38,828 nt of DNA from Clostridia bacterium (GTDB lineage: Bacteria; Bacillota; DSM-521; Neomoorellales; SLTJ01): positions 1 to 38,828 of the forward strand of contig SLTJ01000034.1 of the NCBI GenBank assembly GCA_004347685.1, written 5' to 3'. Positions 490-30,347 of this stretch are shown in pieces (position 1 is the stretch's first letter; each line of letters starts with the position of its first letter). Under the pieces are notes generated by a model. It saw only the letters and a program-made list of their open reading frames with translations. It did not search any database and was not told where the DNA came from. A program made the translations under genes and the position numbers.

Positions 490-3400
490 CTAATCCCCCT
501 CCTTCCGGTAGTTGGTGGCCAGGAGGGTAAGATCCTGGAGGTTAACCTTGCCGTCGGCGTTCAGGTCGGCCCTGGGGTCGAACCCCTCCTGGCCGGTTTC
601 GGTACGGTAGGCCGAAGCCAGCAGGGTCAGGTCCTGCAGGTTAACCCAGTTGTCACCGTTGATGTCGCCCACCAGCAAGGTGACGGGCTCGATCGTGTTA
701 TCGCCGGCGGCTACTTGTACAACAACCCTCCTGATCAGGTACTTTTCCTTAAAGAACTTCAGTTCCCGCGTCCCCTCGGGCACGTCGCTCAGGACGAAAT
801 TCCCGTTCGCGTCCGTGAGGGTGGCCAGGCGTCCGGACGGCGTATCCACGCTGACCTCTACGCCGCCATACTTCCCTGGATCGCGGCCCTGGAGGATTAC
901 CTGGCCGGTAACGGTGCCCCGGCCTGCCGCCTCACCCGTACCCACTGTCAGATTGAACCCCTTGGTGACCATCTCGTACACAGCATCGGTCACGCTCACC
1001 TCAAAGTTAAAGTTTCCTACCGTTGCCGGCGTGCCGTAGATGCAGCCGGCCACCGTGTCCAGCTCCAGGCCGTCGGGCAAGGACCCGCTCACCAGGGACC
1101 AGGTGTAGGGAGGCTCCCCGCCGGTGGCATCCAGAAGCTGGCTGTAAGACGAACCGACGGCGGCCTCCGGCAGCGAATCGGTGGCAATGGCCAGCGGCTG
1201 CTCCTCGGGCGGCTGGCCGACGTAGAACCACCAGGAGATGGAGCCGGAATCCCAGGAGATGTCGAACCTGTACTCGCCCGGAGCCAGCTCCGGCAGGGTG
1301 AGTTCGAGGTACTGCTCGACCGTATCTGTGACGACCGGGGCTACGTTGTCCCAGGCCTGGACAGGCGTGGCCGGGTCAGCTTCATTTACCAGGTTAACGT
1401 TGAAGCTCTTTCCTTCCAGGTTGATCCCGTAGAACTGCACCACCTGGCCCGACATACCGGGCAACAGATCCCATGGCTGCATGGTGTAAAACGCTGGCTG
1501 GTCGGTGAATTGTACCCAGAGCCCGGGCATGTACGGATCCGGATAGTGAATTTCCTGCACCGGCGATTCTACCACCAGGTTATACTCACCCGGCGGAATG
1601 GGCGCCTCTGCGTGCATGCTTGCCCGCAGGATGTTCTGCGCCGGCCATGAACTGCCGCTCTGCACCCGGTAGGTGCTGCCTTGAGCCTCACCGGTCCCCT
1701 GGGCGGCGTAAGAAGCAGCCCTGCCGGAAATCTTCTCCAGCCGGTACGGCGGCTCGTAAGAAGTGCTACCCGCGGCCTGCGCGGCCATGGGATTCACTAT
1801 CTCTACGCTGGTGCTCCGGGCCACCACCTGGCCCGGGTTTTGGCTCCAGGGCGGCGTGACCAACTTCACGGTGTAGTCGGCGTCGGAACTCAGGTTGTAC
1901 CCGGGGAGCTCTACTACGAAGTCGGTGACCCCGGCCTCATACCAGTACTGGTCCGGGTAGTCGAGGATGGCTCCGGAAGTGGCCTGCACCGGCCAGGGCA
2001 GGCTGAGAACTCCGTTTACTTCCAGCACCACCTCGTACGGCCGGCCGCCAGCCAGGCCGGGGCCAGCGTTAAGGACGGCTTGCACCCAGCCATCGCTGGA
2101 ACTACCGTCTTCCCACGTGCCTACCCAGACTTCGGTAGACTCGGCTACCACGGCTCCAAGGCCGTCAGGAGTAGCCTCCCGCACCAGCACCCGCACCTGG
2201 GCCGGGTCGAGGGAGATATTGGCCGCGTCCATCCACACGGCAAGCTCAGAAGTGCCGGCTGGGAACATATGGGGCCCGAGCCAGTAGATGTGGGGATCGC
2301 CTATCACCAGCAAGGCTAGCTTGAAACTCCGGGTTTCTTCATTCTGGGTGACGTCCAGCACGATCTCATACTTACCGCTGGCCAGGCCTGCCGGGAGGCC
2401 GTAGCTAACTTCACCAAAGGTCGGGCCATGGCTGGTATAGGCGAGCAGGCTGGGATCCAGTGTGACTTCCTGCCCCGGCCCTACCGGCACCAGCCGCACC
2501 GCCAGGTCTGGCTGGGAGACCTCCAGGTTGCCTATGTACGCCCACCCGCTTATGCCGGCAGGGTCATATTCTGCCGGCAGCACCAGGGGATTCCACGGAC
2601 CGGGATAACCCGGCTCCACGTAGGTGCCCACGTGGGTGACTTCAAAGAACACGGTCGCCAGAAGCTGCCCGGCTACCGACACCTCGATTGTGTAGTACCC
2701 AGCCTTCAGACCGCCGGGGATGACGGCGCTGATCTGGTCGTCCTGCACCGCAATCACTTGCGCTTCCTTCACCAGGAGCGCGTCCGGCGGCAGGTAGTAT
2801 TGGTTTTCCCGCACCTTCACCGTCACCTGGCCGACGTCAGTGCCGAAGCCCTGGCCGTGGATGGTGATGGGGATGTCCTGGTCGGTTTCGGGCACTGTAC
2901 CCGGCTCTACCCAGAACCCTGGGGGCGGCGGCGTAGAATAAACCACCAATTCCAGGTCCCGCGTGGCCGTGGACCCGGCATTATCGGTTACCTGTACCGT
3001 GAAACCGAAGGTTCCTGCGGCTACCGGCGTGCCGTGGATGCGGCCTACCGTGTCCATCTCCAGGCCGTCGGGCAAGAACCCGCTCACCAGGGACCAGGTG
3101 TAGGGTGGCTCCCCGCCGGTGGCATACAGAAGCTGGCTGTAAGGCGAACTGACGGCGGCCTCCGGCAACCAGTCGGTGGCAATGGCTACCGGCGGAGGCG
3201 TTTCAACCACCTGCACCAGGGCGTCCCGGCCCAGGTAAGCCACGAAAGCCTCTACCATGACTGTTTCTGGATTGTTATCATCGTCAACCAAAGTGGCCAG
3301 CTTTACCAAGGCCGTGGCTCCGTCCAGCGTCAGGTCACCCGGACCGCCGCTACTGGTGAACCGGATGGGCAACTGCGGCCCCTGGGAAAGGTCAACATTA

Positions 3401-4638
3401 TCCTTCACTCGAAAAGTAACTTCTACCAGGCTCTCGCCATCAGGGGCCGCCGGTATGCCGGAAGTTTCCTGGCCCAGTAGCGTGACGGCATAGCTTAACA
3501 GGCCCTGGGTGTTAATATCCGGGTCGAGACTGCCGTCCCCCAGCCAGGGGCTGACCGGAATAGCGTATCCGGCCGGGTCCAGGCCGCTGAAGAGAGAGCC
3601 CTGGTTCACGTAAACGACTTCCACCACGGCGGGGTCAAACTTGAAGTCCAGGGAAGCGCCGTAGAGGGCCGGGACACTTCCGACCATGAAGTCCAGGTTG
3701 AAGGTTTCGCCCGGCGTCACGCTCCAGGCATCCGGCCCGGTCTGGGTCGCGTCGCTCTGCACCCAGACCTCCGGCGGGGGTAGAGGGGTGGGAAAATCCA
3801 ACGCCACGTTATAGATTTGCAGTTCGTCGTAGGCGCCGGTCATGGTGTGGGGGCCGTAGGGCCAGTAGCTCTCCCCCCAAAATTCCCAAGGCGCCTGGCC
3901 GAGGAAAAAGGGCTCACTGCTGTTCAAAGAGGCGTTATAACTGCTTTCGGCCACCTTTTGCCCGTCAACGGCAACAGCGATCTTACCCGTGGTTCCGCTC
4001 CAGGTGACGGCGATGTCGTACCAGTGATCAGAAAGCCACCGGCACCCTTCTGGGGTAGACCAGGTGGCGTTAGACCAGCCGGAGTCGCTCCAGGTGCCAA
4101 AACTCAGGGAAGTGGCCAAGACGCCAGGCTCAGGGCTAAATCCAAGCCACAAGCCAGAGGCGCCGGAGAAGGCCCCAGCCCAGCCTACCGTATCCAGGAG
4201 AAAACCACCAAGCGGCGTTGGGAAACTCCCATAACCGGTCCAGCCTTCGTGGGGCGTCTGATAGCTCTCGTAAAGATTGGCATCGGGTTTCCACCAGAAA
4301 CGGATAGTACCTTCGGTGGGGTTCAACAGGCTGCCGTTATACCCTATGTAACTGGTATCCCCGTCCAGGTGGGCGGCGCTGCCTTCCTTCCCGTCCACCC
4401 AGCTTACTCCATAAACTGCACTGCTCAAGGTCTGCCCGAAGTGGGGGCTGGTGACGGCCCCCGTATTTGCCGCCCCGTCTAGCGAGTCAACAAAGGTCGG
4501 TGCCGGCGGCGGGGACCCTTCTCCACCCTCCCCGGCCAGGGCCGGGGGAGCGGCCGGTACCAGTATGCTCAGCAGCATAATGAGTGCGGAAATAACCGCC
4601 AGACTGCCATGCCTCATTTTGGTCATTCTCATTGCCAA
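490..4638 (-). CDS. Large secreted protein with LamG-like, cohesin-like, Ig-like and dockerin domains
   Basis: A 1382-residue exported protein. Residues 1-36 are a signal peptide ending in PPALAG. Residues 45-283 resemble a LamG/concanavalin-like sandwich. Residues 290-470 resemble a cohesin (VTPGETFNLDF, LDFKFDPAVVEVV, LVEVTFRVKD). Residues 483-567 and 1148-1233 are two near-identical putative Ig (He_PIG) modules with GGEPPYTWSLVSG. Residues 575-668 resemble an IPT/TIG fold, followed by further beta-rich repeats. Residues 1240-1322 resemble a carboxypeptidase-regulatory domain. Residues 1323-1382 are a dockerin with two calcium loops (GDINGDNWVNLQDL and DLNADGKVNLQDL). The start is TTG at 4638, 8 bases after GGAGAGGTG; an ATG two codons in is the alternative. 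Carrying both a cohesin and a dockerin suggests self-assembly or a link to the dockerin protease next door, but binding is inference. No catalytic domain is visible. A CRP-like site and promoter lie upstream. Confidence 0.93.
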   Translation of the reverse strand: MAMRMTKMRHGSLAVISALIMLLSILVPAAPPALAGEGGEGSPPPAPTFVDSLDGAANTGAVTSPHFGQTLSSAVYGVSWVDGKEGSAAHLDGDTSYIGYNGSLLNPTEGTIRFWWKPDANLYESYQTPHEGWTGYGSFPTPLGGFLLDTVGWAGAFSGASGLWLGFSPEPGVLATSLSFGTWSDSGWSNATWSTPEGCRWLSDHWYDIAVTWSGTTGKIAVAVDGQKVAESSYNASLNSSEPFFLGQAPWEFWGESYWPYGPHTMTGAYDELQIYNVALDFPTPLPPPEVWVQSDATQTGPDAWSVTPGETFNLDFMVGSVPALYGASLDFKFDPAVVEVVYVNQGSLFSGLDPAGYAIPVSPWLGDGSLDPDINTQGLLSYAVTLLGQETSGIPAAPDGESLVEVTFRVKDNVDLSQGPQLPIRFTSSGGPGDLTLDGATALVKLATLVDDDNNPETVMVEAFVAYLGRDALVQVVETPPPVAIATDWLPEAAVSSPYSQLLYATGGEPPYTWSLVSGFLPDGLEMDTVGRIHGTPVAAGTFGFTVQVTDNAGSTATRDLELVVYSTPPPPGFWVEPGTVPETDQDIPITIHGQGFGTDVGQVTVKVRENQYYLPPDALLVKEAQVIAVQDDQISAVIPGGLKAGYYTIEVSVAGQLLATVFFEVTHVGTYVEPGYPGPWNPLVLPAEYDPAGISGWAYIGNLEVSQPDLAVRLVPVGPGQEVTLDPSLLAYTSHGPTFGEVSYGLPAGLASGKYEIVLDVTQNEETRSFKLALLVIGDPHIYWLGPHMFPAGTSELAVWMDAANISLDPAQVRVLVREATPDGLGAVVAESTEVWVGTWEDGSSSDGWVQAVLNAGPGLAGGRPYEVVLEVNGVLSLPWPVQATSGAILDYPDQYWYEAGVTDFVVELPGYNLSSDADYTVKLVTPPWSQNPGQVVARSTSVEIVNPMAAQAAGSTSYEPPYRLEKISGRAASYAAQGTGEAQGSTYRVQSGSSWPAQNILRASMHAEAPIPPGEYNLVVESPVQEIHYPDPYMPGLWVQFTDQPAFYTMQPWDLLPGMSGQVVQFYGINLEGKSFNVNLVNEADPATPVQAWDNVAPVVTDTVEQYLELTLPELAPGEYRFDISWDSGSISWWFYVGQPPEEQPLAIATDSLPEAAVGSSYSQLLDATGGEPPYTWSLVSGSLPDGLELDTVAGCIYGTPATVGNFNFEVSVTDAVYEMVTKGFNLTVGTGEAAGRGTVTGQVILQGRDPGKYGGVEVSVDTPSGRLATLTDANGNFVLSDVPEGTRELKFFKEKYLIRRVVVQVAAGDNTIEPVTLLVGDINGDNWVNLQDLTLLASAYRTETGQEGFDPRADLNADGKVNLQDLTLLATNYRKEGD
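1040..1197. repeat. Repeated Ig-module segment, copy 2
   Basis: This segment encodes the second He_PIG-like module and is nearly identical at DNA level to 3010-3192. Shared runs include the parts coding for LPEAAV, GGEPPYTWSLVSG and LPDGLE. Such low divergence inside one gene points to recent duplication or gene conversion. Confidence 0.8.
3010..3192. repeat. Repeated Ig-module segment, copy 1
   Basis: This is the partner of 1040-1197 and encodes the first He_PIG-like module. The copies differ mainly by scattered substitutions and by one extra codon in copy 2 near its cysteine (VAGCIYGTP against VGRIHGTP). Confidence 0.8.
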
Positions 4639-4854
4639 TCGAATTTCACCTCTCCACTAACCAAAATGTTAGGGCCGCGGCCCCGCCCCGGCGTATGGCC
4701 ATAGCCCCTCATCCCAGGTCAAGCTGACTAATGTCGCCTACAGCCACCCCCCAGGTAATCATCAGCGACAGCGCTACGCATACCATTTGCGGAAGCCACC
4801 CACACCACAACTTCGAGCAACAATGACAAGAATCTGCCGCTACACCCTGCTGCG

Positions 4855-4897
4855 ATTATAAGCCCCAATTCCGCCTCATAGTGTGATGGCCATCACC
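4855..4897 (-). promoter_or_regulatory. Class II CRP-type promoter of the cohesin/dockerin gene
   Basis: On the minus strand a perfect TATAAT lies at 4860-4855, giving a predicted transcription start near 4848. No good -35 box exists 17 bases upstream. Instead the palindrome TGTGA-TGGCCA-TCACC occupies 4882-4897, with a perfect 14-bp core (GTGATGGCCATCAC). Its centre at 4889.5 is 41.5 bases above the predicted start, the classical position for activation by CRP bound over the -35 region. The leader to the TTG start at 4638 would be about 210 bases. The remainder of the 4639-5142 gap holds no other feature I recognise. Confidence 0.65.
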
Positions 4898-5142
4898 CTA
4901 GCCAAATTTTAATCGGCGGTTGAAAATACTGCCTTAACCCCTCATTGGCTGAGGGCGCGGCTAAAGCGGAAGGCCACCCGGGACAAGTGTTGAAAAATCC
5001 TCCACGGCAAGGGCCCGGAAAAAGCTCCGTCTGGCTCAAGAATTCTCTCATGGCGTAATCAGTTCCCCTGACCCTTCTTTAAAAGTCTCCGGGTAAACGC
5101 CCAGGGCGCCCCGGCTACCACCGACAGACGGGTGACAAGGGG

Positions 5143-6489
5143 CTACCTGGTGCCATACCACTCGGCTACCAGACGCAGGTCACCCAGGGTGATCTCGCCG
5201 TCGCCGTCCAGATCCAGGGATGACTCGTATCCCGGTTCCCCAGGACGCCGGCCGTAAATCCCGGCCACCCGCACCAGGTCGTAGAGATCCACCAGACCGT
5301 CGCCATTGACATCTTCCCGCCCGGCCATTTCACCATGGTAACTGAGAACCTTCCAGGCGTCTACCTCCCCATGGCCGCTGATCTCGTCCCACCCGGCGGC
5401 CCCCACGTCCGTCGTGCCCGTCTGCAGTCGCTGGCGCACCTGCTCCGGCGCCAGCCAGGTCTCCCTGGACCGCAGCAAGGCGGTTATTCCCGAAACGTAC
5501 CCCGCAGCGTAAGAGGTGCCGCTGCCCAGAGCCGTTCCCCCGCCCAACCTCAGGCCGTGGACGCCGATCCCGGGAGCCACCACGTCAAGCCCGGCACCCC
5601 GGTTGGATTTCACCCATACACTGCCGTCCTGCTGAATGGCGCCTACGGCCACCACTTCCGGGATGGCTGCCGGATAAATCACCGGGCCGCCGTCATTACC
5701 GGCTGCCGCTACTACCACGACACCCTTCCCTTCTGCGTAGGCCACCGCTTCGGCCAGGGTTTGGGAATACTCGGCCCCCCCCAGGCTGAGGTTGATCACC
5801 CTGGCCCCCTGATCGGCGGCAAAGATTATCCCGGCGGCGATATCGCTGTCATAGCCGTAACCGTTACTATCCAGCACCTGCACCGGCAACAGCGTAACCT
5901 CCCAAGCCACCCCGGCCATGCCGATCCCGTTGTCGGTAAGGGCACCGATAATCCCGGCCACAAAGGTCCCGTGGCCAACCCCATCTTCAGGGAAGGCGTC
6001 ATCGTTAACGAAGTCGTACCCGGGAAGGAGCCGGCCAGCCAGGTCTTCATGCCCTGCGTCCACCCCGCTATCCACCACCGCCACCACCATCTCGCGGCTG
6101 CCCAAGGTAGCTTCCCAGGCTTGGGGCAGTTTCAGGCGGGCCAGCGCCCACTGCTGGCCGAACAAGGAGTCGTTGGGATATACTGCCAGGGCGCGGCGGG
6201 CATAATCCGGCTCCACATATTCTACCCGCTCGTCGCGCTGGAAGCGGGACAGCAGGCTGTCAACGCTTTCGGAGGGCCCCTTCGGCACTGGTACTACTCC
6301 CAGCCTAGCCAGTTGCCGCCCCGGGGCCCCGGCTGAAGGCAGGGCCGAGAGCGGCACCCGGCCGGGTTTATATTTGACAATGACCCCCCGCGCTTCTGCC
6401 GCCAGGGCAGAAAGAGGCGAAAGAAGCACCGCGGCCAGCAGGAGAATAATCACTAGGCACACCCGTGGCCCTGTTTTGTTGTTGGGCAT
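5143..6489 (-). CDS. Secreted subtilisin-like serine protease with C-terminal dockerin
   Basis: An S8-family protease of 448 residues from the ATG at 6489. The frame stays open upstream to 6663, but that extension has no signal peptide; a GTG at 6501 is also possible. A hydrophobic signal peptide ends near LSALAAEA. An I9-like propeptide follows (about residues 33-100, KYKPGRV through VEYVEPDY). The catalytic triad is complete: Asp140 (VVDSGVD), His173 (GHGTFVAG) and Ser326 (GTSYAAG), with the oxyanion Asn265 in AAGND. The last 60 residues are a dockerin with two calcium loops (DVNGDGLVDLYDL and DLDGDGEITLGDL). Proteases with dockerins are normally tethered to cohesins, and a cohesin-like domain lies in the next gene, so the two products may associate outside the cell. 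The partner is inferred, the protease activity is well supported. Confidence 0.93.
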   Translation of the reverse strand: MPNNKTGPRVCLVIILLLAAVLLSPLSALAAEARGVIVKYKPGRVPLSALPSAGAPGRQLARLGVVPVPKGPSESVDSLLSRFQRDERVEYVEPDYARRALAVYPNDSLFGQQWALARLKLPQAWEATLGSREMVVAVVDSGVDAGHEDLAGRLLPGYDFVNDDAFPEDGVGHGTFVAGIIGALTDNGIGMAGVAWEVTLLPVQVLDSNGYGYDSDIAAGIIFAADQGARVINLSLGGAEYSQTLAEAVAYAEGKGVVVVAAAGNDGGPVIYPAAIPEVVAVGAIQQDGSVWVKSNRGAGLDVVAPGIGVHGLRLGGGTALGSGTSYAAGYVSGITALLRSRETWLAPEQVRQRLQTGTTDVGAAGWDEISGHGEVDAWKVLSYHGEMAGREDVNGDGLVDLYDLVRVAGIYGRRPGEPGYESSLDLDGDGEITLGDLRLVAEWYGTR

Positions 6490-6744
6490 AATCAGTCGCA
6501 CCCCTGTCTCCTGTTGTTGGCCGGATGCGGCCGGCGGAGAGGCGCATCTGGCAAGTGTAACGCCCATGTAATCACACTGAAAGCCGGCCCCCAAGCTGAG
6601 CCCCGTACCCCGGGAGTTATTCTGCAGGTAAAGTTTTCTACACCTCACTTTGTTTTCCTGCAATGCTTATGAAAAAACATCCTGCCGGTAATATCAAATA
6701 CTTCTCAAATTTTCTATGACAACCGTTAGCGACTGCAAACTTTT

Positions 6745-7467
6745 TCAGGTTTGCTCCTCACCGGCGAGCAGAATGTCACCCATGGCAGCGCGGTTAACCA
6801 CCAGGCTGCCCCGCCGCGATTGAACCACCCCTCTCTTTTCCAGTTCGGCCATCACACGCGTCACCGTCTCGCGGGAAGTGCCGGCCATCCCTGCCAGTTC
6901 CTGATGGCTGAGGGGCAGGACTATGCGGTCCCGGCCCGGCTCCAGCAGGCTCAGCTCGGTAACCATGGCTACCATGGCGCGGATAATCCTGGCCCTGGTG
7001 TCACGAAAGGCCAAGTCCTGTATTTGCTCGTTCGCCTGGCGCAGGCGCTGGCTGAGAACCCGGCTTAAATTGAGGGCCACTTGGGGATATTTATCTAGCA
7101 GCCGGCGGAAATCGGCCTTCTCCATGACTAATAATTCAACCCGTCTCAGGCTCACGGCCCCGGCTGAGCGGGGGCTGTCATCCAAAAGCCCCATCTCTCC
7201 AAAGAAATCGCCCTCACCACAAACGTCGAGGATTTTTTCGCGCCCTTCCTCGGTAAGGCGGTAGATCTTCACCAGTCCGGACTTGATCATATAGAAGGCA
7301 TCAGCCGGAGCGTCTTCCAGGAAAATAGTTTCCTGGCGGCCGTAAGTTTTCTGCCGGCAGGCGCCAGCCCACTCCTCCAGGCCAGCCGGCTCAACACCCC
7401 GCAACAGATTTACCCGCGCCAGGAAGGCAACCGTCACCTCTCCCCACCCTCCGACTCCTGCCGCCAT
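6745..7467 (-). CDS. CRP/FNR-family transcriptional regulator (CRP-type DNA specificity)
   Basis: A 240-residue CRP-family protein. Residues 15-125 form the cyclic-nucleotide-binding beta roll with the phosphate cassette FGEMGLLDDSPRSA (Arg100, Ser101). Residues 126-155 form the dimer helix. Residues 186-215 are the helix-turn-helix, with recognition helix SRETVTRV. The R-E-x-x-x-R pattern matches E. coli CRP and predicts TGTGA half-sites; FNR has a different pattern. There are no N-terminal cysteines for an iron-sulfur cluster, so it is not FNR. The two C-helix residues that contact adenine in CRP (Thr-Ser) appear to be Ala-Asn here, so the ligand is less certain than the DNA site. The ATG at 7467 was chosen; a GTG at 7434 would trim the N-terminus. 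A predicted target site lies at 4882-4897 and a cyclase gene lies at 9736. Confidence 0.92.
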   Translation of the reverse strand: MAAGVGGWGEVTVAFLARVNLLRGVEPAGLEEWAGACRQKTYGRQETIFLEDAPADAFYMIKSGLVKIYRLTEEGREKILDVCGEGDFFGEMGLLDDSPRSAGAVSLRRVELLVMEKADFRRLLDKYPQVALNLSRVLSQRLRQANEQIQDLAFRDTRARIIRAMVAMVTELSLLEPGRDRIVLPLSHQELAGMAGTSRETVTRVMAELEKRGVVQSRRGSLVVNRAAMGDILLAGEEQT

Positions 7468-7508
7468 GGCCTTTCCAGCCGCTAGCTACAAATATGTACC
7501 TGGACTTT

Positions 7509-7537
7509 ATTATCCGGCCTCCCTTTCCCCTTGTCTA
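7509..7537 (-). promoter_or_regulatory. Predicted promoter of the CRP-family gene
   Basis: On the minus strand TAGACA (7537-7532) and GATAAT (7514-7509) are separated by 17 bases, each matching 5 of 6 sigma-A consensus positions. An inverted GGATGAT copy (7543-7537) touches the upstream edge of the -35 box. Confidence 0.55.
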
Positions 7538-7698
7538 TCATCCCCGGGCCGCTTCCAGGATGATCTTGCCGGCTTGGGGATGATATGAAAGTGATATGGG
7601 GGATGATGTGGGGATACTTTGCGAAAATTTAACCCCAACGAGGATGATGTTTCCTTTGGAAATTGTGCCGTGATATGGTATACTCAGTTCAGGATGAT
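7537..7698. repeat. GGATGAT repeat cluster in and around divergent promoters
   Basis: Five direct copies of GGATGAT start at 7558, 7578, 7601, 7642 and 7692, and one inverted copy (ATCATCC) lies at 7537. Two copies of a related GTGATATGG lie at 7591 and 7670. Spacings between direct copies are 20, 23, 41 and 50 bases, roughly whole helical turns for the first three. The cluster fills the space between the crp-type promoter and the LuxR-fusion promoter and reaches the predicted start of the latter. It looks like an operator array for an unidentified regulator, perhaps the LuxR fusion itself. Confidence 0.55.
7656..7684 (+). promoter_or_regulatory. Predicted promoter of the MFS-LuxR fusion gene
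   Basis: TTGGAA (7656-7661) and TATACT (7679-7684) are 17 bases apart, predicting transcription from about 7691. This excludes translation from the upstream open frame at 7619 and supports the GTG at 7766 or the ATG at 7790. Confidence 0.55.
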
Positions 7699-7765
7699 AC
7701 CTTTTGAGCACTTAAGGCCGTTAGCCACACTATCGTCTTGTGACGGCAAGGGAAGATCAAGCAAC

Positions 7766-9646
7766 GTGAATGTGGACGAAAAAGGGCTTATGCCCCGGAT
7801 AGCCTTGCTGGTATTCTTGGCCGCCCTGTTCGGCTGGCTGCTTTCTTTCCCCCTGTTCGGCCCCGGCCTGGACTGGTTTACCGCCCAAGGGGCCAAGACC
7901 CTGGACGGCGTGTACCTGTTTCTCGTGTTCCACGCCCTGGGCCTGGTGGCCGGGTCCGGGTCCGGGGCGTGGCGCGCCTGGTCCCCGTGGACCATGGCCG
8001 CGATCGGCCTGGCCGTCTGTCTGGCAGCCAGCGGCCTGAGCCTCCGCTGGCCGCAAGGGTGGCCGGCTTTCGCCGCCGTCATGGGCATAGCCTCGGCCCC
8101 GGCGGTGCTGGCCTGGTGCACGGTCTTTACCGACACCGTCCCGGATCACCTCCGGGGCCGTACCCTGGCCATGAGCATGGCCCTGGCCAACGGGCTCCTA
8201 TACGCCGACACGTGGGTAAGTATACCTGGAGACCGGCCCCTGGCCGGGCTGCTCCTGGCCGTTGTCTCCCTGGCGGCCAGCCTGGGGATAGCCACCCTGC
8301 TGGGCGTGAGAGCGCATCTGATCGGGGGTGCCGCCGGGCCGCCTCCCACCTTGGCCCCTGGCGTAAGGACAAACGACGGCCCTCCGCCGGATCCGGGGCC
8401 GGACAGAACGGGCCGATCGGGCACCTCGTCCAGGGTTTCGCGGCTGTCCTTCCAGCCCCGGCTGCTTCGCCTGCCGACCGGGCTGGCCCTGTTCATCCTG
8501 TGCATCTACTTTACGACCGGCCTGGTATCCGAAATGGTCTACCGGCCTCTACAGAATTTACCGGCCGGGGGGACATACTACGGTGTTCTCCCATACATAG
8601 GCTGTGCCGTCTTAGCCGGGTTTCCCACTGACAGCCACGGGCGCCGGTGGCTGGCCCACTGGGCTCTGGCCGTGATCGGTATTTCCCTGACCCTTTCGGT
8701 CTCCCGCTCCTGGTTTCTAGTCGCCTTTCTCGCGCCGGCTTTGACCCAAGCGGGCTATGCTTTAGCTGATCTGTATTTGTGGACAACCCTAGCCGATCTC
8801 TCGCGCCCGGGAGAGGCCCCGCGATACTTCGGCCTGGGCCTGGGTTTAAACGTTTTCACCGTCGGCCTGGGGGCCTACCTGTCGCCCCTGGCGGCCGAGA
8901 CGATCATGGAACCCCGGCTACTCGCCCTCCTTGCCCTCTTCGCGGCCGTCCTGGCTTCGACCAGGCTGGAGGAGACCCTACACCGGCAGGCGGTAGCCCT
9001 GGCTATTGAGATCACCCCGGGACTGGAGATATCTCTTCCCACCCCAGCAGCAACTACCGTTGCCGCCAGCCAAGCTGTGGCGTCTTCTTTTCTTGCCTTC
9101 CCCGGCCCGGGCCCCGATGACTGCGGTCCAACCCCGGACGAATGGCGCGGGGAAAAAACAGAGGTATCTGCCTGCCCGGACGCGGGTTCGGCCCCGACGG
9201 CTCATGCTGGAGACCCAGCCCAGGTGGTTGCCGGCAGTTCCAAGCCGGTATTGGAGGAATCCACACCGGTAGGGGCCGGAATCGCCCTTAGTCCGGCCGC
9301 CGAGTCATTGCCGGCCGCAGAACAGCCGGACCCTCCTCAGACGGCCGGGCCATGGCTCGACAGTCATGGTGGCGTCCAGCCGCACCCGGGAGAGGAGCTA
9401 TTAAGGCCCTTTGCCGGGCGCCTAACCCCCCGGGAACAGGATGTGGTGCTGCTTCTGGTACAGGGCTTAAGCTACGCCGATATCCGGGAGCAGCTTTACA
9501 TTTCCGAGGGCACCCTGAAAACCCACCTCCGGAACATTTACCGCAAATTCGAGGTAAGACGCCGGCGGGAGTTGCTGGAAGCTCTAACCGGCAAAGTCCA
9601 CGGGGAGATGGCCTACAGCGAAGAAGAAAAAATACGGAAGAAATAA
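7766..9646 (+). CDS. MFS-type membrane protein fused to a LuxR-family DNA-binding domain
   Basis: About 626 residues from the GTG at 7766; the ATG at 7790 is an alternative. The first about 410 residues are strongly hydrophobic with around twelve membrane segments in the major-facilitator pattern, including a loop with HLRGRTLAMSMALANG and a central cytoplasmic loop rich in Pro and Gly. A Pro/Ala/Glu-rich linker of about 130 residues follows. The last 80 residues are a LuxR/GerE helix-turn-helix (LTPREQDVVLLLVQGLSYAD, then SEGTLKTHLRNIYRKF). Such fusions are thought to be membrane-anchored regulators in which the transporter-like part senses a ligand. The substrate cannot be predicted. It is divergent from the crp-type gene and shares a repeat-filled promoter region with it. 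Confidence 0.88.
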   Translation: MNVDEKGLMPRIALLVFLAALFGWLLSFPLFGPGLDWFTAQGAKTLDGVYLFLVFHALGLVAGSGSGAWRAWSPWTMAAIGLAVCLAASGLSLRWPQGWPAFAAVMGIASAPAVLAWCTVFTDTVPDHLRGRTLAMSMALANGLLYADTWVSIPGDRPLAGLLLAVVSLAASLGIATLLGVRAHLIGGAAGPPPTLAPGVRTNDGPPPDPGPDRTGRSGTSSRVSRLSFQPRLLRLPTGLALFILCIYFTTGLVSEMVYRPLQNLPAGGTYYGVLPYIGCAVLAGFPTDSHGRRWLAHWALAVIGISLTLSVSRSWFLVAFLAPALTQAGYALADLYLWTTLADLSRPGEAPRYFGLGLGLNVFTVGLGAYLSPLAAETIMEPRLLALLALFAAVLASTRLEETLHRQAVALAIEITPGLEISLPTPAATTVAASQAVASSFLAFPGPGPDDCGPTPDEWRGEKTEVSACPDAGSAPTAHAGDPAQVVAGSSKPVLEESTPVGAGIALSPAAESLPAAEQPDPPQTAGPWLDSHGGVQPHPGEELLRPFAGRLTPREQDVVLLLVQGLSYADIREQLYISEGTLKTHLRNIYRKFEVRRRRELLEALTGKVHGEMAYSEEEKIRKK

Positions 9647-9653
9647 TGGGTTA

Positions 9654-9683
9654 TTGCTACCATGGGCCTACCTATGGTAAGAT
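9654..9683 (+). promoter_or_regulatory. Predicted promoter of the cyclase gene with overlapping inverted repeat
   Basis: TTGCTA (9654-9659) and TAAGAT (9678-9683) are 18 bases apart. An inverted repeat, TACCAT (9658-9663) and ATGGTA (9674-9679), spans the spacer and touches both boxes. That placement would suit a repressor or a spacer-remodelling activator. Confidence 0.45.
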
Positions 9684-9735
9684 AGCTGTGTGCTTGTACG
9701 TAGCATAGCCTGGTGGGTGGGGGGAGGAGTGTTTT

Positions 9736-11637
9736 TTGCGCCGGAGTCGGCGGTACGTGGCCGTAGTCGTGCTCCTGGCGGTGATGCTTGCTACGGCGGG
9801 CCTAGGCCTCTGGGAGCGCTGGGAACTGATGCTTTATGATACCTGGTTCGGCCTGCGGGGCCGCGAGACCCCGGACCCACGGATAGTGCTGGTGGAGATA
9901 GACGATGCCTCCATCCGGGAGATCGGGCCCTTTGTCTGGCCGCGCAGCGTCCACGCCGACCTGATAACCAAACTGGCCAGCGCCCGGGTGGTGGGGTGGG
10001 ATCTCCTCCTGGACGCTCCCGGTGATCCGGCCGGGGACGAAGCCCTGGCGCGGGCTCTGAAGGCGAGCGGGCCGGCCACGGTGCTGGCTTCGACCTTTAC
10101 CTTCTCCCAGGAAAACGGCGAGTGGATGCAGCAGCTTCAGCAGCCGTGGTCGCCTCTGGCGGCCGCCAGCCACAGCACTGGTTTCATCAACACGCCCACT
10201 GATGTGGATAATGTCGTCCGGGGGGTTATTCCGGCTGACCTGAACACCTTTGCCCGCCCCTATCCCTCTTTTAGCCTGGCCGTAACCCTGGCCTACCTGG
10301 GCCTGGACGTAGACGACCTGACCCTGGGCCCGGCGGGCCTGGTGGCCGGCCACCTGCGGGTGCCGTGGAACGGCGCCAGCAGGGTACTGGTGGACTTCGC
10401 CGGGCCGGGGCGGACTTTTCCTATTTACCGCTATGCCGACGTGCTGGCCGGCCGCATTGATCCGCAAACCTTTCGCGATAAGATAGTCCTTATCGGCCCG
10501 ACTTCGCCCCTTTTCCACGACGAATACAACAACCCCTTTACCCGAAGCAACCTGGTACTGGGAGCGGCCTTGCCCAGCCCGGGTTTGGAGCTCCACGCCA
10601 ATGCCATTGCCAGCTTTTTGCGTGGCCGGTACTTCCACCGGGCCGGAACGCCCTTGAACCTGCTCGTCTTGCTGCTGGCGGGAGCCGGAACCGTACTGGC
10701 CACCCGCCGCCTGCGGCCGTGGCTGGGAACGGCGGCGATGCTGGGAATGGCCGGCGGCCTGGCCGCCATCACGTACTGGCTCTGGCTCTCCATGGGCCTA
10801 TGGCTCAACTTCTTAGCCCCCTTGATCACCATTGCCCTCACCTTCACCCTGGTGACCCTGAGTAACCTCATCGAAGCCGAACTTAACCGCCGCCGCGTCC
10901 AAGAGCTTTTCGGCCGTTATGTCCCCCCCGAAGTGGTAAGCGAACTGGTGCAGCACCCGGAGATGGTCCCCCTTGGCGGACAGCGTCAGGAAGTAACGGT
11001 GATCTTCTCGGATATCCGCGGTTTTACCAGTTACAGTGAGGGGCAGGCCCCGGAAACAGTGGTGGCCAGGCTCAACGAGTACTTTACCGCCATGACCGAG
11101 GTGATCTTCCGCCACGGCGGCACCCTGGACAAGTACCTGGGAGACGGCCTGATGGCCCTTTTTGGCGCGCCGGTGCCTTCGCCGCACCATGCCCGCCAGG
11201 CCCTGAAGGCGGCCGGGGAGATGCTGACCCGGGTGGAGGAACTAAACCAGACCTGGGCCGAAAGGGGAGAAAAGCTTTTCCGCATCGGTATCGGCATTAA
11301 CAGCGGCCCGGTGCTGGTGGGCAACATCGGCAGCCCCCGGCGCCTGGAGTATACAGCCATCGGCGAGGAGGTCAACCTGGCCTCGCGGCTGGAAAGCCTG
11401 AACAAGGAGTTCAAGACCTCGATGATTATCAGCGAGAGGACACTGGCCTGCCTAGAGCAACAGGGCTTCGCAACCGCCGGCCTGCGGGAACTGGGAACAG
11501 TGGCGGTGCGGGGCCTGGAGCAACCGGTGAAAATATTCACTGCTCATTTCTCAAGTCAGGAAGGTGGAGAGGATGGAGACCGGGCCGAGCAAGGTAGAGA
11601 AACTGTCCACCCTGCTGGAAATCAGCCGGGAGCTTAA
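9736..11637 (+). CDS. CHASE2-domain class III adenylate/guanylate cyclase
   Basis: A 633-residue membrane sensor. The TTG start at 9736 follows GGAGGAG. A membrane segment (residues 7-25) leads to an extracellular CHASE2 domain (about 27-300; YDTWFGLRG, IVLVEIDDASI, DKIVLIGPT). Three more membrane helices (306-376) precede the cyclase domain (about 415-600). Metal-binding Asp426 (FSDIRGF) and Asp470 (YLGDGLMALFG), and transition-state residues Asn547 and Arg551 (VNLASRLE), are present. Lys466 and Thr540 fit the Lys/Thr pair of ATP-using class IIIb enzymes, so cAMP is the likely product. Three kilobases away is a CRP-type regulator, the obvious receiver. The C-terminal end overlaps the next gene by 65 bases, implying cotranscription and translational coupling. 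Confidence 0.93.
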   Translation: MRRSRRYVAVVVLLAVMLATAGLGLWERWELMLYDTWFGLRGRETPDPRIVLVEIDDASIREIGPFVWPRSVHADLITKLASARVVGWDLLLDAPGDPAGDEALARALKASGPATVLASTFTFSQENGEWMQQLQQPWSPLAAASHSTGFINTPTDVDNVVRGVIPADLNTFARPYPSFSLAVTLAYLGLDVDDLTLGPAGLVAGHLRVPWNGASRVLVDFAGPGRTFPIYRYADVLAGRIDPQTFRDKIVLIGPTSPLFHDEYNNPFTRSNLVLGAALPSPGLELHANAIASFLRGRYFHRAGTPLNLLVLLLAGAGTVLATRRLRPWLGTAAMLGMAGGLAAITYWLWLSMGLWLNFLAPLITIALTFTLVTLSNLIEAELNRRRVQELFGRYVPPEVVSELVQHPEMVPLGGQRQEVTVIFSDIRGFTSYSEGQAPETVVARLNEYFTAMTEVIFRHGGTLDKYLGDGLMALFGAPVPSPHHARQALKAAGEMLTRVEELNQTWAERGEKLFRIGIGINSGPVLVGNIGSPRRLEYTAIGEEVNLASRLESLNKEFKTSMIISERTLACLEQQGFATAGLRELGTVAVRGLEQPVKIFTAHFSSQEGGEDGDRAEQGRETVHPAGNQPGA

Positions 11638-12679
11638 CTCTTACCTCCAGCCAGAAGACCTGGTGCAACTGGTGTTGGAGAAGGCCATGGAAGTGGCGGC
11701 GGCCGAGGCCGGTACCCTGTGGCTGGTGGAGGAGGACGGGTATCTCGCCCCCCTGATGGCCCGCGGGCCCAGGGCCGACAGCCTCAAAGGCCTGCGCCTG
11801 GCGCCGGGCGAGGGCCTGGCCGGGCAGGTGGTGGAGAGAAACGAACCGCGCCTGGTAGAGGACGTTACTAAGGATCCGGCCTGGGCCGGACGCTTTGACC
11901 AGACTACCAGCTTTGTCACCCGCTCCATCCTCTGCGTGCCGCTGCGGGCCAGGGCAAAGGTTATCGGCTGCCTGCAGTTGATCAACAAGTTATCCGATAA
12001 CAGTCTCTTCGGCCAGGACGACCTGGAACTGGCCCTGGCCTTTGCCGGCCACGCGGCCATCGCCCTGGAAAACGGCCGCTTATACTCCCAACTCCACACC
12101 CTGCTGCACAGCTTGATCGGCGCCCTCACCTCCTCCCTGGACGCCCGTGACCCGTACACCCATGGTCACTCCGAGCGGGTGGCCCGTTACTCCCTGATGA
12201 TCGGCAGGGAACTCGGCTTTACCGCGGAAGAAATGGCGAACCTGGAGCGGGCCGCCCTGTTGCACGATATTGGCAAGATCGGCATCCGGGACCACGTCTT
12301 GTTACAGGAGGGGCCGCTGGATAAGGAGAAATACGAGATAATGAAGACCCACCCCCAGATCGGAGCGCGAATTCTGGAGGATGTGACCCCGCGCTCCCTG
12401 GTGCGGGGCATCTACGAAGGGGCCCTCTACCACCAGGAAAAATGTGACGGCACCGGCTATCCCCAAGGCCTGAAAGACGGCGAGATCCCCCTGGTAGGCC
12501 GGATAATATCCGTGGCCGACACCTTTGACGCCATCACCACCGACCGGCCCTACCGTAAAGGAGCGCCGGTACCCGAAGCCCTGGCCGAAATCCGCCGCTG
12601 CGCCGGCACCCAGTTTGACCCGCAGGTGGCTGCGGCCTTCTGCCGGGCCATGGAAAACTCCCTGCCCAGTGGGACTTAG
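11573..12679 (+). CDS. GAF domain / HD-GYP phosphodiesterase
   Basis: A cytoplasmic 368-residue protein from the ATG at 11573, five bases after AAGGTGG; the GTG at 11564 lacks room for an SD. An N-terminal GAF sensory domain (about 15-170) precedes an HD-GYP domain (about 180-365) with HGHSERVARYS, ALLHDIGKIGI (His231, Asp232) and CDGTGYPQGL. HD-GYP proteins usually hydrolyse c-di-GMP or related cyclic dinucleotides. The usual HHE in the second metal motif reads HQE here, so one metal ligand may be missing and the metal number may differ. It overlaps the cyclase gene upstream, joining cyclic-nucleotide synthesis to a phosphodiesterase in one operon. Confidence 0.92.
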   Translation: METGPSKVEKLSTLLEISRELNSYLQPEDLVQLVLEKAMEVAAAEAGTLWLVEEDGYLAPLMARGPRADSLKGLRLAPGEGLAGQVVERNEPRLVEDVTKDPAWAGRFDQTTSFVTRSILCVPLRARAKVIGCLQLINKLSDNSLFGQDDLELALAFAGHAAIALENGRLYSQLHTLLHSLIGALTSSLDARDPYTHGHSERVARYSLMIGRELGFTAEEMANLERAALLHDIGKIGIRDHVLLQEGPLDKEKYEIMKTHPQIGARILEDVTPRSLVRGIYEGALYHQEKCDGTGYPQGLKDGEIPLVGRIISVADTFDAITTDRPYRKGAPVPEALAEIRRCAGTQFDPQVAAAFCRAMENSLPSGT

Positions 12680-13246: not shown

Positions 13247-13310
13247 GACATAATGTCCTAATAAAATGGGACATTTGTCCCATAGACTTTTGCGAAATCC
13301 ATGTTAAAAT
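13247..13310 (+). promoter_or_regulatory. Tandem palindromes above a candidate promoter
   Basis: Two related palindromes sit about two helical turns apart: GACAT-A-ATGTC (13247-13257) and ATGGGACA-TT-TGTCCCAT (13266-13283). The second abuts the -35 position of a TAAAAT box at 13305-13310, whose -35 hexamer is poor. The motif family (GGACA/TGTCC) was not identified, and no gene starts just downstream on either strand. Confidence 0.45.
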
Positions 13311-26698: not shown

Positions 26699-27481
26699 TT
26701 AGTGCCGGTACTTCTCCAGTTCTTCCAGCAGGTTGGGGTTGAGCACCCGGATATAGGTGCCCTTCATGCCCAGAGACTTGGACTCGATCACGCCGGCGCT
26801 TTCAAATTTACGCAGCGCATTGACGATGACCGAACGGGTGATGCCGGCGCGGTCGGCGATCTTGCTGGCCACCAGCACCCCTTCGCTGCCGCCAAGCTCG
26901 GCGAAGATATGCTGTACCGCCTCCAGTTCGGAGTAAGACAGGGTGCCCAGAGCCACGTGGACCGCCGCCCGCTTACGCGCCTCTTCCTCTATCCTTTCGG
27001 CCTTGGACCGGAGTATTTCCATCCCGACCACCGTGGCTCCATACTCGGCCAGGATCAGGTCTTCATTGGAGAACTCCACGTTGAACTTGGCCAAAACCAG
27101 GGTACCAAGGCGTTGCCCGCCGCCGGCGACAGGCACCACTGTAACCAGCTTGCCGGTGAAGAAGCACTCCCGGCCGGGCTGGAACACGCAGCCATTACCC
27201 ACCTGGGCGAAATTAGCATTGGTGCGGTCCATCCGCAGGAGTTCCTCGTTATAGTCCTCGGGAAAATGCTCCGACCGGTAGACGATATCCTCCATGATCT
27301 CGCAGGCAAACCCTTCCATGAAGGAATAACCGAGGATGGCTCCCGAGCGGCTGAGGATATAACAATTGCAGGTAATGGTATCCGATAATACTTTAGCCAT
27401 TTCGCTAAAGTCCACCGGGTTCCCAGCCGACCTTTGCAGCAACTTGTTGATATCACGGGTCTTTTCTAGTAGCGCCTTCAA
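26699..27481 (-). CDS. codY: GTP- and branched-chain amino-acid-sensing repressor CodY
   Basis: Global repressor of nutrient-scavenging genes in low-GC Firmicutes, active when GTP and branched-chain amino acids are plentiful. The N-terminal GAF domain starts [15 protein letters not shown]. The C-terminal winged helix is highly conserved ([20 protein letters not shown], then [20 protein letters not shown]). The TTG start at 27481 has AAGGAGG eight bases upstream. Position after xerC-hslV-hslU matches the codV-codW-codX-codY operon of Bacillus subtilis. No full CodY box (AATTTTCWGAAAATT) was found in this window. Confidence 0.98.
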
Positions 27482-27502
27482 TCAACATTCCTCCTTGAAC
27501 AT

Positions 27503-28891
27503 CTAGAGAATATAACGGCTCAAGTCTACGTCTTGCATGATACCACCCAACTTGGCACTTACATAGTCTTCGTCTATCTCAACCTCCCGGGCCTCAACCT
27601 CAGGAGCGGCATAAAGGAGATCGTGCAGCAGTTTCTCCATGATGGTGTAAAGGCGCCGCGCGCCGATATCCTCCCCCTGGGCATTAACAGTATAAGCTAT
27701 TTCTGCTATCCGGGCAATAGCTTTTTCTGTAAAATTTAATTTTACGTCTTCACTGCCCAGCAGGGCCGTATACTGCCTGATCAAGGAGTTTTCCGGTTCG
27801 GTCAATATCCGCTGTAGGTCGGCGCAACTGAGGCTGGTCAGTTCCACGCGGATGGGGAAACGCCCCTGCAGCTCGGGAATCAGGTCAGCCGGCTTACTGA
27901 CGTGAAAAGCTCCGGCGGCAATGAACAGGATGTGGTCGGTCTGTACCGGACCGTACCTGGTCATAACGGTCGTGCCCTCCACCAGCGGCAGGATGTCCCG
28001 TTGCACCCCCTCCCGGGAAACGTCCGGTCCCGCCCCCTGCTCCCGGCCGGCAATCTTATCAATCTCGTCAATGAAGATAACCCCCTCCTCCTGCGCCCTT
28101 CTGAGAGCTTCCTCAGCCACTTCCTCAGCGTCAATAAGCCTGTCGGCTTCTTCGGCGGCCAGGATCTTACGCGCCTGAGCCACCGTTACCCGCCGCCGCT
28201 TCTTCCGTGGCGGCAGGAGATTTCCCAGCACGTCCTGCATGTTGATCCCCAACTGCTCCATACCCGAGCCGGTGAAGAGCTCCACCATGGGCGGCATACG
28301 GTCGTCTACTTCAATTTCCACATACTCGTTCTCCAGCTCCTGGCGCCGCAGCTTTTCCCGGTAGATGTCCCGGTGCTGGCGGATTTCCTCGTCGCTGGCG
28401 GTGGCTGCCGGGCCAGACTCCACTGTCCCCCGCCCGAGCAGCATGTCCAGGGGGTTGCGGCCGGAGGCCGGGCGGCGCAGGGGGGCGAAGATGTCCAGCA
28501 GCCTGTCTTCCGCCAGGGCCTGGGCGTGGTCAGCCACCTGGGCCCGTTTTTCCCGCTGCACCATGTGCACCGCAGCCTCTGCCAGGTCCCTGACCATGGA
28601 TTCCACATCCCGGCCGACATACCCGATCTCCGTAAACTTGGTGGCCTCTACCTTAACGAAGGGCGCTCCCACCAGCCTGGCCAGGCGCCTGGCAACCTCT
28701 GTCTTGCCCACCCCGGTGGGCCCGATCATGAGGATATTCTTCGGGGCGATTTCGTCCCGCAGGTCCGCCGGCAGCTTTTGCCGCCGGTAACGGTTGCGCA
28801 AAGCCACGGCTACGCACCTTTTCGCTTCTTCCTGCCCGATGATGTAGCGGTCCAGCTCGGCGACAATCTCCCTCGGTACCAGGAACGCCAT
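27503..28891 (-). CDS. hslU: HslU ATPase subunit of the HslVU protease
   Basis: The AAA+ unfoldase that feeds proteins to HslV. Walker A is [14 protein letters not shown] and Walker B is [11 protein letters not shown], both intact. The I-domain lies between them (about residues 110-245), and the C-terminal tail ends DVDLSRYIL, the segment that docks into HslV. The ATG overlaps the hslV stop as TAATG. Confidence 0.98.
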
Positions 28892-29430
28892 TAAAGGTCC
28901 TCCACGGTTATATGATCATTGGTGTAGATACAGATAGAAGCGGCTATCACCAGGGACTCCCGGACAATTTCCCCGGCCGAAAGCCCGGTGTGGGCTACCA
29001 GGGCCCGGGCCGCCGCCAGGGCATAAGGCCCACCTGAACCTACGGCCACAATACCGTCATCAGGCTCCAGCACCTCGCCGGTACCGGAAAGGAGGAAAAT
29101 GCGCTCGGCGTCAGCTACCACCAGCAGGGCCTCCAGGCGGCGGAGGAAGCGGTCGGTGCGCCACTCCTTGGCTAGCTCCACCGTGGCCCGGGCCAGGTTG
29201 CCGTGGAACTCATTCAGCTTCCCCTCGAACTTTTCGAACAGGGCCAGGGCGTCGGCCACGGCCCCGGCAAACCCGGCCAGCACCTGCCCTTGGTACAGGC
29301 GGCGTACCTTCCTGGCTTGGTGCTTGGCCACCGTGGCATTCTGCATGGTGACCTGTCCGTCGCCGCCGATGGCCGTGTGGCCGTCACGGTGGACGGCTAC
29401 AATAGTGGTGCCGTGAAACATCGCCATCAT
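28891..29430 (-). CDS. hslV: HslV peptidase subunit
   Basis: The threonine protease core, a dodecamer related to proteasome beta subunits. The active-site Thr8 follows Gly7 in [14 protein letters not shown] and would be exposed by removal of the first seven residues. Further conserved parts are [16 protein letters not shown] and [20 protein letters not shown]. The ATG at 29430 or the one at 29421 could be used. Bacillus CodW uses a catalytic Ser, whereas this protein keeps Thr. Confidence 0.97.
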
Positions 29431-29441
29431 CCGTCCCGTCC

Positions 29442-30347
29442 TTACCTGGCCCGCGGGTGGGCCCGCTCATACACTTCCTTCAGGCGCCAGCCGGTCACAT
29501 GGGTATAGATCTGGGTCGTGGACAGGCGGGCATGCCCCAGCAACTCCTGCACCGACCGCAGGTCAGCGCCGCCCTCCAACAGGTGAGAAGCAAAGCAGTG
29601 GCGCAGCGTATGCGGCCCGACACCAGGGGCCAGGCCGGCCTCCCGCGCGTACCTGGATACCAGAGCGTATACCGCCCGGCGGGAAAGCCTGCGGCCGCGC
29701 GCACTCAGGAAAACGTACCCGGCTTCTTCGGGCCGGTGGGGCCGCGGCCTGTTTTGCAGGTAGCGCTCCAGCCAGCCGGAAGCCACCGACCCCAGGGGCG
29801 CCAGCCGCTCGCGTTGCCCTTTGCCCAAAACCCTGAGGCACCTCCCGGAAAGGTCCACGTCGCCCAGGCCCAGGCCGGTCAGCTCGCTGACCCGCAGCCC
29901 CGAACCATACAGGAGTTCCAGGATGGCCCGGTCGCGCAGGCCCACCGGAGTATCCACCCGGGGGGCCGCCAGGAGAGCCTCCACCTGCTCGTAACGCAAC
30001 ATCACCGGCAGGTGCCGGGGAAGCCTGGGGCTGTGCAGGACCCCCACCGGATTCTCCCGCAGCCAGCCCGCACGCACCAGAAACTTAAAATACGTGCGCA
30101 GGGCACTTACCTTGCGAGCAATGGTGGTGCGGGCCAGACGTTTCTGCCCCAGCCAGGCCAGGTAGCGGCGTAAGGCCCAGGTTTCGAGCTCGGCCGGGCC
30201 GTGGTAGCCCTGGGCCTCGGCCCAGTCCCAGAACTGCTCCAGATCCCGCTGGTAGGCGGCCAGGGTGTTGCCGGCCAGTTGCTTCTCCCCTACCAGGTGA
30301 TTGCGAAAGAATTCTCTTTTCCAAGCTTCTTCGCCAGCAGTAGTCAT
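29442..30347 (-). CDS. xerC: Tyrosine recombinase XerC (CodV)
   Basis: Resolves chromosome dimers at dif. The N-terminal SAM-like core-binding domain spans residues 10-100. All catalytic residues are present: Arg152 (SGLRVSEL), Lys176, His246 and Arg249 ([12 protein letters not shown]), His272 (LLGHARLS) and Tyr281 (IYTHV). At 301 residues it has the standard length. It is the first gene of the codY operon, 11 bases before hslV. Confidence 0.96.

Follow-up and report, generated by a model that had tools for sequence, protein, structure and literature searches.

A probable cyclic-nucleotide switch for cell-surface genes in a Clostridia bacterium: a CHASE2 cyclase and a CRP-like regulator near the class II CRP-type promoter of a cohesin/dockerin gene

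The DNA analysed here (the window) is the whole of a 38,828-nt contig, SLTJ01000034.1 (C29), from a Clostridia bacterium whose genome (GCA_004347685.1, G000) comprises 3.12 Mb in 54 contigs. It carries a gene for a secreted protein with laminin-G-like, cohesin, Ig-like and C-terminal dockerin domains, close to genes for a CRP-like regulator and a CHASE2 cyclase (Table 1). We put at about 0.55 the probability that this cohesin/dockerin gene has a class II CRP-type promoter which is read by the neighbouring regulator, and that a cyclic nucleotide from the cyclase, most likely cyclic AMP (cAMP), activates this regulator, tuning the cell surface. Judged from sequence, the cyclic-nucleotide switch for cell-surface genes is probably real. 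An earlier note made from the sequence of the window had proposed a complete cAMP-type circuit. That proposal gains from the class II geometry, the intact pocket of the regulator, the single ATP-type class III cyclase and the recurrent linkage of such genes with palindromes; it is weakened by two paralogous regulators, on contigs C4 and C19, that could bind the same site.

The palindrome TGTGATGGCCATCAC (4882-4896) is centred at 4889.5, which is -41.5 relative to the predicted transcription start if the -10 box sets that start. Both this position and the presence of a perfect TATAAT lacking a -35 box had been described in the earlier note, and both hold: there is no hexamer at a permitted spacing (CACTAT stands at 17-nt spacing from TATAAT), and a sigma-70 scan predicted no promoter there. 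On the same assumption about the -10 box, a site at -41.5 without a -35 box is the architecture of a class II CRP-dependent promoter. A predicted CRP dimer on 4882-4897 would overlap the would-be -35 position and could recruit RNA polymerase to the TATAAT, and the most likely activator of the gene would be the nearby CRP-like protein.

The exact pattern TGTGA-N6-TCAC occurs once in the window. Genome-wide, a search that the earlier note had proposed as a check returned 30 occurrences (17 + 13), against 5 (1 + 4) for the reversed control pattern, and TGTGA-N6-TCACA was found at nine sites against none for its control. Hexamers of the form TA---T were scored at distances of 10 to 44 nt after the 16-mer for all genome sites. 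At a cut-off of at least 4/6, eight hexamers lie at exactly 21 nt, compared with 0-3 at each of the 34 other distances; at a cut-off of at least 5/6, there are six at 21 nt and at most one at any other distance. As one duplicated leader accounts for three of the eight (C21, and C30 twice), six independent cases are left, for which a Poisson estimate of the 21-nt phasing is about 1e-5. Because the phasing is found at six independent promoters, the class II geometry characterises the genome and is not peculiar to one site. Taken together, the genome-wide enrichment and the phasing mean that the window palindrome is not a chance occurrence. The signal is confined to near-perfect sites, a permissive YGGCCR search (three mismatches) showing no enrichment (49 hits against 42 for the control). 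The abundance of TGTGA-N6-TCACA was also considered as a marker of cAMP and rejected, since such sites are common in relatives without a cyclase.

Promoters of the same type stand ahead of other surface genes. On contig C14, CGTGATGGCCGTCACA-N21-TATAAT (74456-74414) precedes the gene for a 1527-aa dockerin protein; its spacer is unrelated in sequence to that of the window promoter, with palindrome, spacing and -10 box alone in common. On C30, copies of the promoter type are found ahead of a nucleotide-sugar dehydrogenase gene and of rmlA, whose product scores above the NCBIfam equivalog cut-off for glucose-1-phosphate thymidylyltransferase and which is followed by genes resembling rmlC, rmlD and rmlB. 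The regulon would probably also include the second dockerin gene and these cell-surface sugar-nucleotide genes, so the circuit may tune the cell surface as a whole. A self-contained set for the control of dockerin proteins, as proposed earlier, is too narrow a view, given that the S8-dockerin gene adjoining the target gene has no palindrome site and that the rmlA operon and the dehydrogenase gene share the promoter type. An orthologous dockerin promoter was sought in relatives without success: no orthologue of the 1382-aa protein was found, and the three dockerin loci in genome G019 are without a good palindrome.

A nearly identical leader of about 330 nt is duplicated ahead of rmlA and the dehydrogenase gene (C30:17851-17350, C30:28086-27654, the end of C21, and C54; loci L203, L208 and L209). 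Its upstream part is joined to an apparent FtsZ C-terminal fragment, and contigs end inside it. No riboswitch or other known RNA was found in this shared leader or in the predicted 210-nt leader of the window gene, neither of which matched Rfam.

Sites with other cores lie ahead of genes for a hybrid-cluster (Prismane) protein, RACo, a multihaem cytochrome and iron-sulphur/flavin oxidoreductases. Targets are split by function, the surface genes having a YGGCCR core and the redox genes mostly other cores. As a mark of the regulator, the YGGCCR core alone is weakened by some CODH-region sites that also have the Y-G step. The class II TGTGA-N6-TCACA promoters of redox genes are located at C1:205-225 kb, C7:53.8 kb and C19:1-12 kb (L201, L202, L213 and L210), and the redox-gene sites are probably a redox/nitrosative regulon of a C4- or C19-type CRP.

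The window regulator belongs to the CRP family by its cyclic-nucleotide-binding domain and Crp-type winged helix. Its recognition helix is SRETVTRVM, with R-E-R at the equivalents of R180/E181/R185, and it retains E-R-S at the equivalents of the E72/R82/S83 phosphate pocket of E. coli CRP. When seven CRP-type regulators of the genome were aligned, this pocket was found in the window protein only. The R-E-x3-R helix is present in three of the seven, namely the window protein and the paralogues on C4 (RETVAR, about 26.8 kb) and C19 (RETVSR, about 50.7 kb), which have FPA and QPL, respectively, in place of E-R-S. The earlier note had relied on RETVTR as the recognition helix of CRP; the helix is indeed present, but it does not speak for cAMP, since CRP-family regulators that do without cAMP have the same helix and recognise TGTGA-N6-TCACA. 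The phosphate pocket is the better argument for a cAMP-type regulator. The nearest solved structures are those of M. tuberculosis CRP and corynebacterial CRP-family regulators, followed by E. coli CAP, and the equivalent of S128 is Asn, as in the M. tuberculosis protein. Against the NCBIfam CRP equivalog the window protein scores 113, below the cut-off of 266, and it is therefore not an orthologue of E. coli CRP. In a phylogenetic tree, C4 and C19 fall within a starred clade of degenerate-pocket regulators from relatives, nearly all of them without a cyclase. The window CRP sits in an unresolved fork with CRPs encoded beside cyclases in other genomes (linked CRPs), on a long branch; a single ancestry of the linked CRPs is unsupported.

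The cyclase gene lies 2.27 kb beyond the regulator gene, in agreement with the 2.3 kb given earlier. The two have opposite orientations and are separated by a LuxR-type membrane gene (7619-9646), the product of which is hydrophobic, apparently multi-pass, and has a C-terminal GerE/LuxR-type DNA-binding domain. Apart from this cyclase, the genome has no Guanylate_cyc match, a count that covers class III enzymes only. All of the catalytic residues are present (two metal Asp, Lys/Thr and Asn/Arg; FSDIRGFT, DKYLGDG, YTAIGEEVNLASR), and the purine-selecting sites are, as the earlier note had it, an ATP-type pair of Lys (GTLDKYLGDG) and Thr (EYTAIGEEVN). Where the window cyclase has this Lys, the sequence of the PDB match 2w01, which we take to be a guanylyl-type enzyme, has Glu. 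In response to an extracytoplasmic or membrane signal, the cyclase would make a cyclic nucleotide, cAMP being the likeliest. A GAF-HD-GYP gene overlaps it, a pairing kept in G062 and G099 (59% and 56% identity), and might, speculatively, link the circuit to cyclic di-GMP.

In 11 other Bacillota loci (G107, G069, G059, G045, G022, G087, three Paenibacillus species, a Paenibacillaceae strain and a Limnochordaceae metagenome-assembled genome), the gene for a class III cyclase, in most cases with CHASE2, was found together with a pocket-bearing CRP gene, and the E-R-S pocket is kept in all 11 linked CRPs. Often a FecR-like gene lies between cyclase and CRP (Pfam-confirmed in G059). Like this module, the window has cyclase and pocket-bearing CRP genes close together (in its case within 2.3 kb), whereas its intervening gene is of the GerE/LuxR type and not FecR. 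The linked loci were scanned for TGTGA dyads matching at least 9/10, with 29 composition-matched permuted half-sites as a control. Nine sites were found in 7/11 loci, against a permuted mean of 0.97 and maximum of 4, although TGTGA is not top among all 1024 half-sites, being exceeded by low-complexity and GC-rich ones. In G069, TGTGACGGCCGTCACC lies between the cyclase and CRP genes; it is nearly identical to the window site and is the only match in that genome to TGTGAYGGCCRTCACA at one mismatch or fewer. The Limnochordaceae locus contains CGTGACGGCCGTCACA, again nearly identical. Moreover, class II-like spacing is seen in G022 (N21 TATAAT), CAVE-418 (N21 TAAAAT), G069 (N20 TAAACT) and G087 (N22 TAAAAT). 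It is mainly because TGTGA palindromes recur inside linked cyclase-CRP loci that we assign the window site to the window regulator.

A number of observations weigh against that assignment, or against cAMP as the signal. The C4 and C19 paralogues, with their R-E-x3-R helices, could occupy the same DNA, and many relatives that have no cyclase show enrichment of TGTGA-N6-TCACA. No TGTGA palindrome lies ahead of the window CRP or cyclase genes, giving no sign of autoregulation for either, and the closest cyclase orthologues (G062, G099 and G035) have no CRP gene in the flanks examined. In the pocket, the equivalent of E. coli T127, an adenine contact as is S128, is Ala, as it is in several linked CRPs. 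The tRNA methyltransferase TrmD, which in cAMP producers is said to have Tyr/Phe at a marker position (PMC5217690), has Leu there (ILLSPQG). A comparison of TrmD Tyr/Phe with cyclase presence in relatives gave 2/12 versus 11/69 (p = 0.6; about 29 genomes unparsed, with a few motif mis-hits). The residue was rejected as an independent marker of cAMP on account of this lack of association, and its absence here is for the same reason weak evidence against cAMP. The window-like core is also not exclusive to genomes with the cyclase: TGTGACGGCCRTCACG-type sites, adjoining a predicted membrane protein gene, occur in genus g19 (G029, G075 and G113; L278-L280), where no CHASE2 cyclase was found, and another regulator must therefore read that core there.

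Much of this could be accommodated if the promoter were a real class II CRP-family promoter read by a cAMP-independent, HcpR/Fnr-like anaerobic paralogue of the C4 or C19 type, with the nearby CRP and cyclase serving other targets, an explanation that we regard as unlikely, if far from negligible. HcpR/Fnr-like regulators of anaerobes share with the window the consensus wTGTGAnnnnnnTCACAw and R180/E181, and Desulfovibrio HcpR and Thermoanaerobacter Crp2 have CRP-like motifs (PMC1274295); they are not cAMP regulators and control nitrosative/redox genes, a role that C4 and C19 fit better than does the window CRP. The RETVAR and RETVSR helices, the same consensus and phasing ahead of the hcp-like (Prismane), RACo and multihaem cytochrome genes, and the sites of cyclase-less relatives all agree with such a paralogue. 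However, it does not account for the split of targets between YGGCCR and other cores, nor for the recurrence of YGGCCR palindromes in cyclase-CRP loci. The core bases of the window site score closer to linked-locus sites than to those of cyclase-less relatives, but that score comes from few sites, with leave-one-out values for linked sites of -6.2 to +5.2.

The cyclase-CRP pair might also work with cyclic GMP or another nucleotide as effector, or several CRP paralogues might overlap in control. The T127 to Ala change, the TrmD without its Tyr/Phe marker and the overlapping HD-GYP gene would fit this, whereas the Lys of the cyclase in place of the Glu of 2w01 speaks against it, and we judge it improbable. 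It is very improbable indeed that the palindrome lies where it does by chance or is a relic, and that no regulator binds it: TGGCCA palindromes do occur in coding sequence (for example at C6:110963, inside a formate-tetrahydrofolate ligase-like gene), whereas the exact -10 phasing at six independent promoters and the same architecture ahead of a second dockerin gene speak against coincidence. Control by the window CRP and a cyclic nucleotide from the CHASE2 cyclase is thus the explanation we favour.

Parts of such a system are already known. In Sinorhizobium meliloti, the CHASE2 cyclases CyaD1, CyaD2 and CyaK supply cAMP to Clr, which drives exopolysaccharide synthesis, and Clr targets include polysaccharide (succinoglycan) and FecR-domain genes (PMC5498481, PMC13001267). 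As is predicted for the window, a CHASE2 class III cyclase there feeds a CRP-family activator, and a pSymB protein of S. meliloti has 32% identity to the window cyclase in an alignment that covers 94% of it. However, S. meliloti is an alphaproteobacterium with many cyclases (the window genome has one class III enzyme), its targets are not dockerin proteins, and the Clr box, HGTYHCNNNNGRWACA, is unlike the TGTGA-N6-TCACA type of the window. In Campylobacterota, a CHASE2 adenylate cyclase and a FecR-domain gene share a cluster (PMC9239204), and the G059 locus is alike in this; the Campylobacterota cluster contains a phosphodiesterase and a TPR protein with no CRP listed, while in the window no FecR gene separates regulator from cyclase. 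The window CRP resembles M. tuberculosis CRP (Rv3676) and Corynebacterium GlxR in its E-R-S/T pocket, the Asn at the S128 position and the R-E of the helix, but the similarity is distant, the T127 equivalent is Ala in the window protein, and a neighbouring cyclase is not described for those loci. Our searches of open-access papers did not turn up a description of the cyclase-CRP pair as a module recurring in Bacillota with class II promoters ahead of dockerin genes.

Adenylate cyclases were predicted in 9/78 representative Firmicutes, and whether and where Firmicutes use 3',5'-cAMP has been described as unresolved (PMC5217690). The statement in the earlier note that cAMP signalling is considered rare or absent in most Firmicutes overstates the case, adenylate cyclases being uncommon there without being absent. 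One genome here combines an intact-pocket regulator, just one class III cyclase, of the ATP type, and surface-gene promoters that are few and precisely phased, with related pairs and sites elsewhere in Bacillota. This gene and promoter set makes the question of cAMP in Firmicutes testable and suggests that dockerin-type surface proteins can come under second-messenger control. Tentatively, many Bacillota may own a hitherto undescribed CHASE2-cyclase/(FecR)/CRP pathway for sensing what lies outside the cell and for controlling, through class II CRP promoters, surface polysaccharides and surface proteins (cohesin/dockerin proteins in this case). If true, this would be a cAMP second-messenger route in a group usually said to lack cAMP.

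Table 1. Positions of the promoter elements and genes of the putative circuit in the window.
Feature	Position	Strand	Basis or remark
CRP-type palindrome GGTGATGGCCATCACA	4897-4882	minus	sequence; near-identical promoters at G000 C14:74456-74414 and in the C30/C21 copies
-10 hexamer TATAAT, perfect	4860-4855	minus	21 nt after the palindrome
Predicted transcription start (+1)	4848	minus	arithmetic: last T of TATAAT = -7
Predicted 5' leader, about 210 nt	4639-4848	minus	from predicted start to gene
Target gene, 1382 aa, TTG start	490-4638	minus	domain matches
CRP-like regulator gene	6745-7467	minus	PF00027 2.2e-27, PF13545 5e-16
Promoter-like site of CRP-like gene, TAGACA-17-GATAAT	7509-7537	minus	sigma-70 scan
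CHASE2 sensor and class III nucleotidyl cyclase gene	9736-11637	plus	CHASE2 8.5e-53, Guanylate_cyc 1.9e-27
GAF-HD-GYP phosphodiesterase-like gene	11564-12679	plus	overlaps cyclase gene

Elsewhere in the window, a perfect 16-bp palindrome, TGGGACATTTGTCCCA, lies in an intergenic region at 13267-13282. Lastly, assignment to the Bacillota is supported by a codY-like gene (26699-27481) and by the order codY-, hslU-, hslV-, xerC-like over 26699-30347, which is that of Firmicutes.

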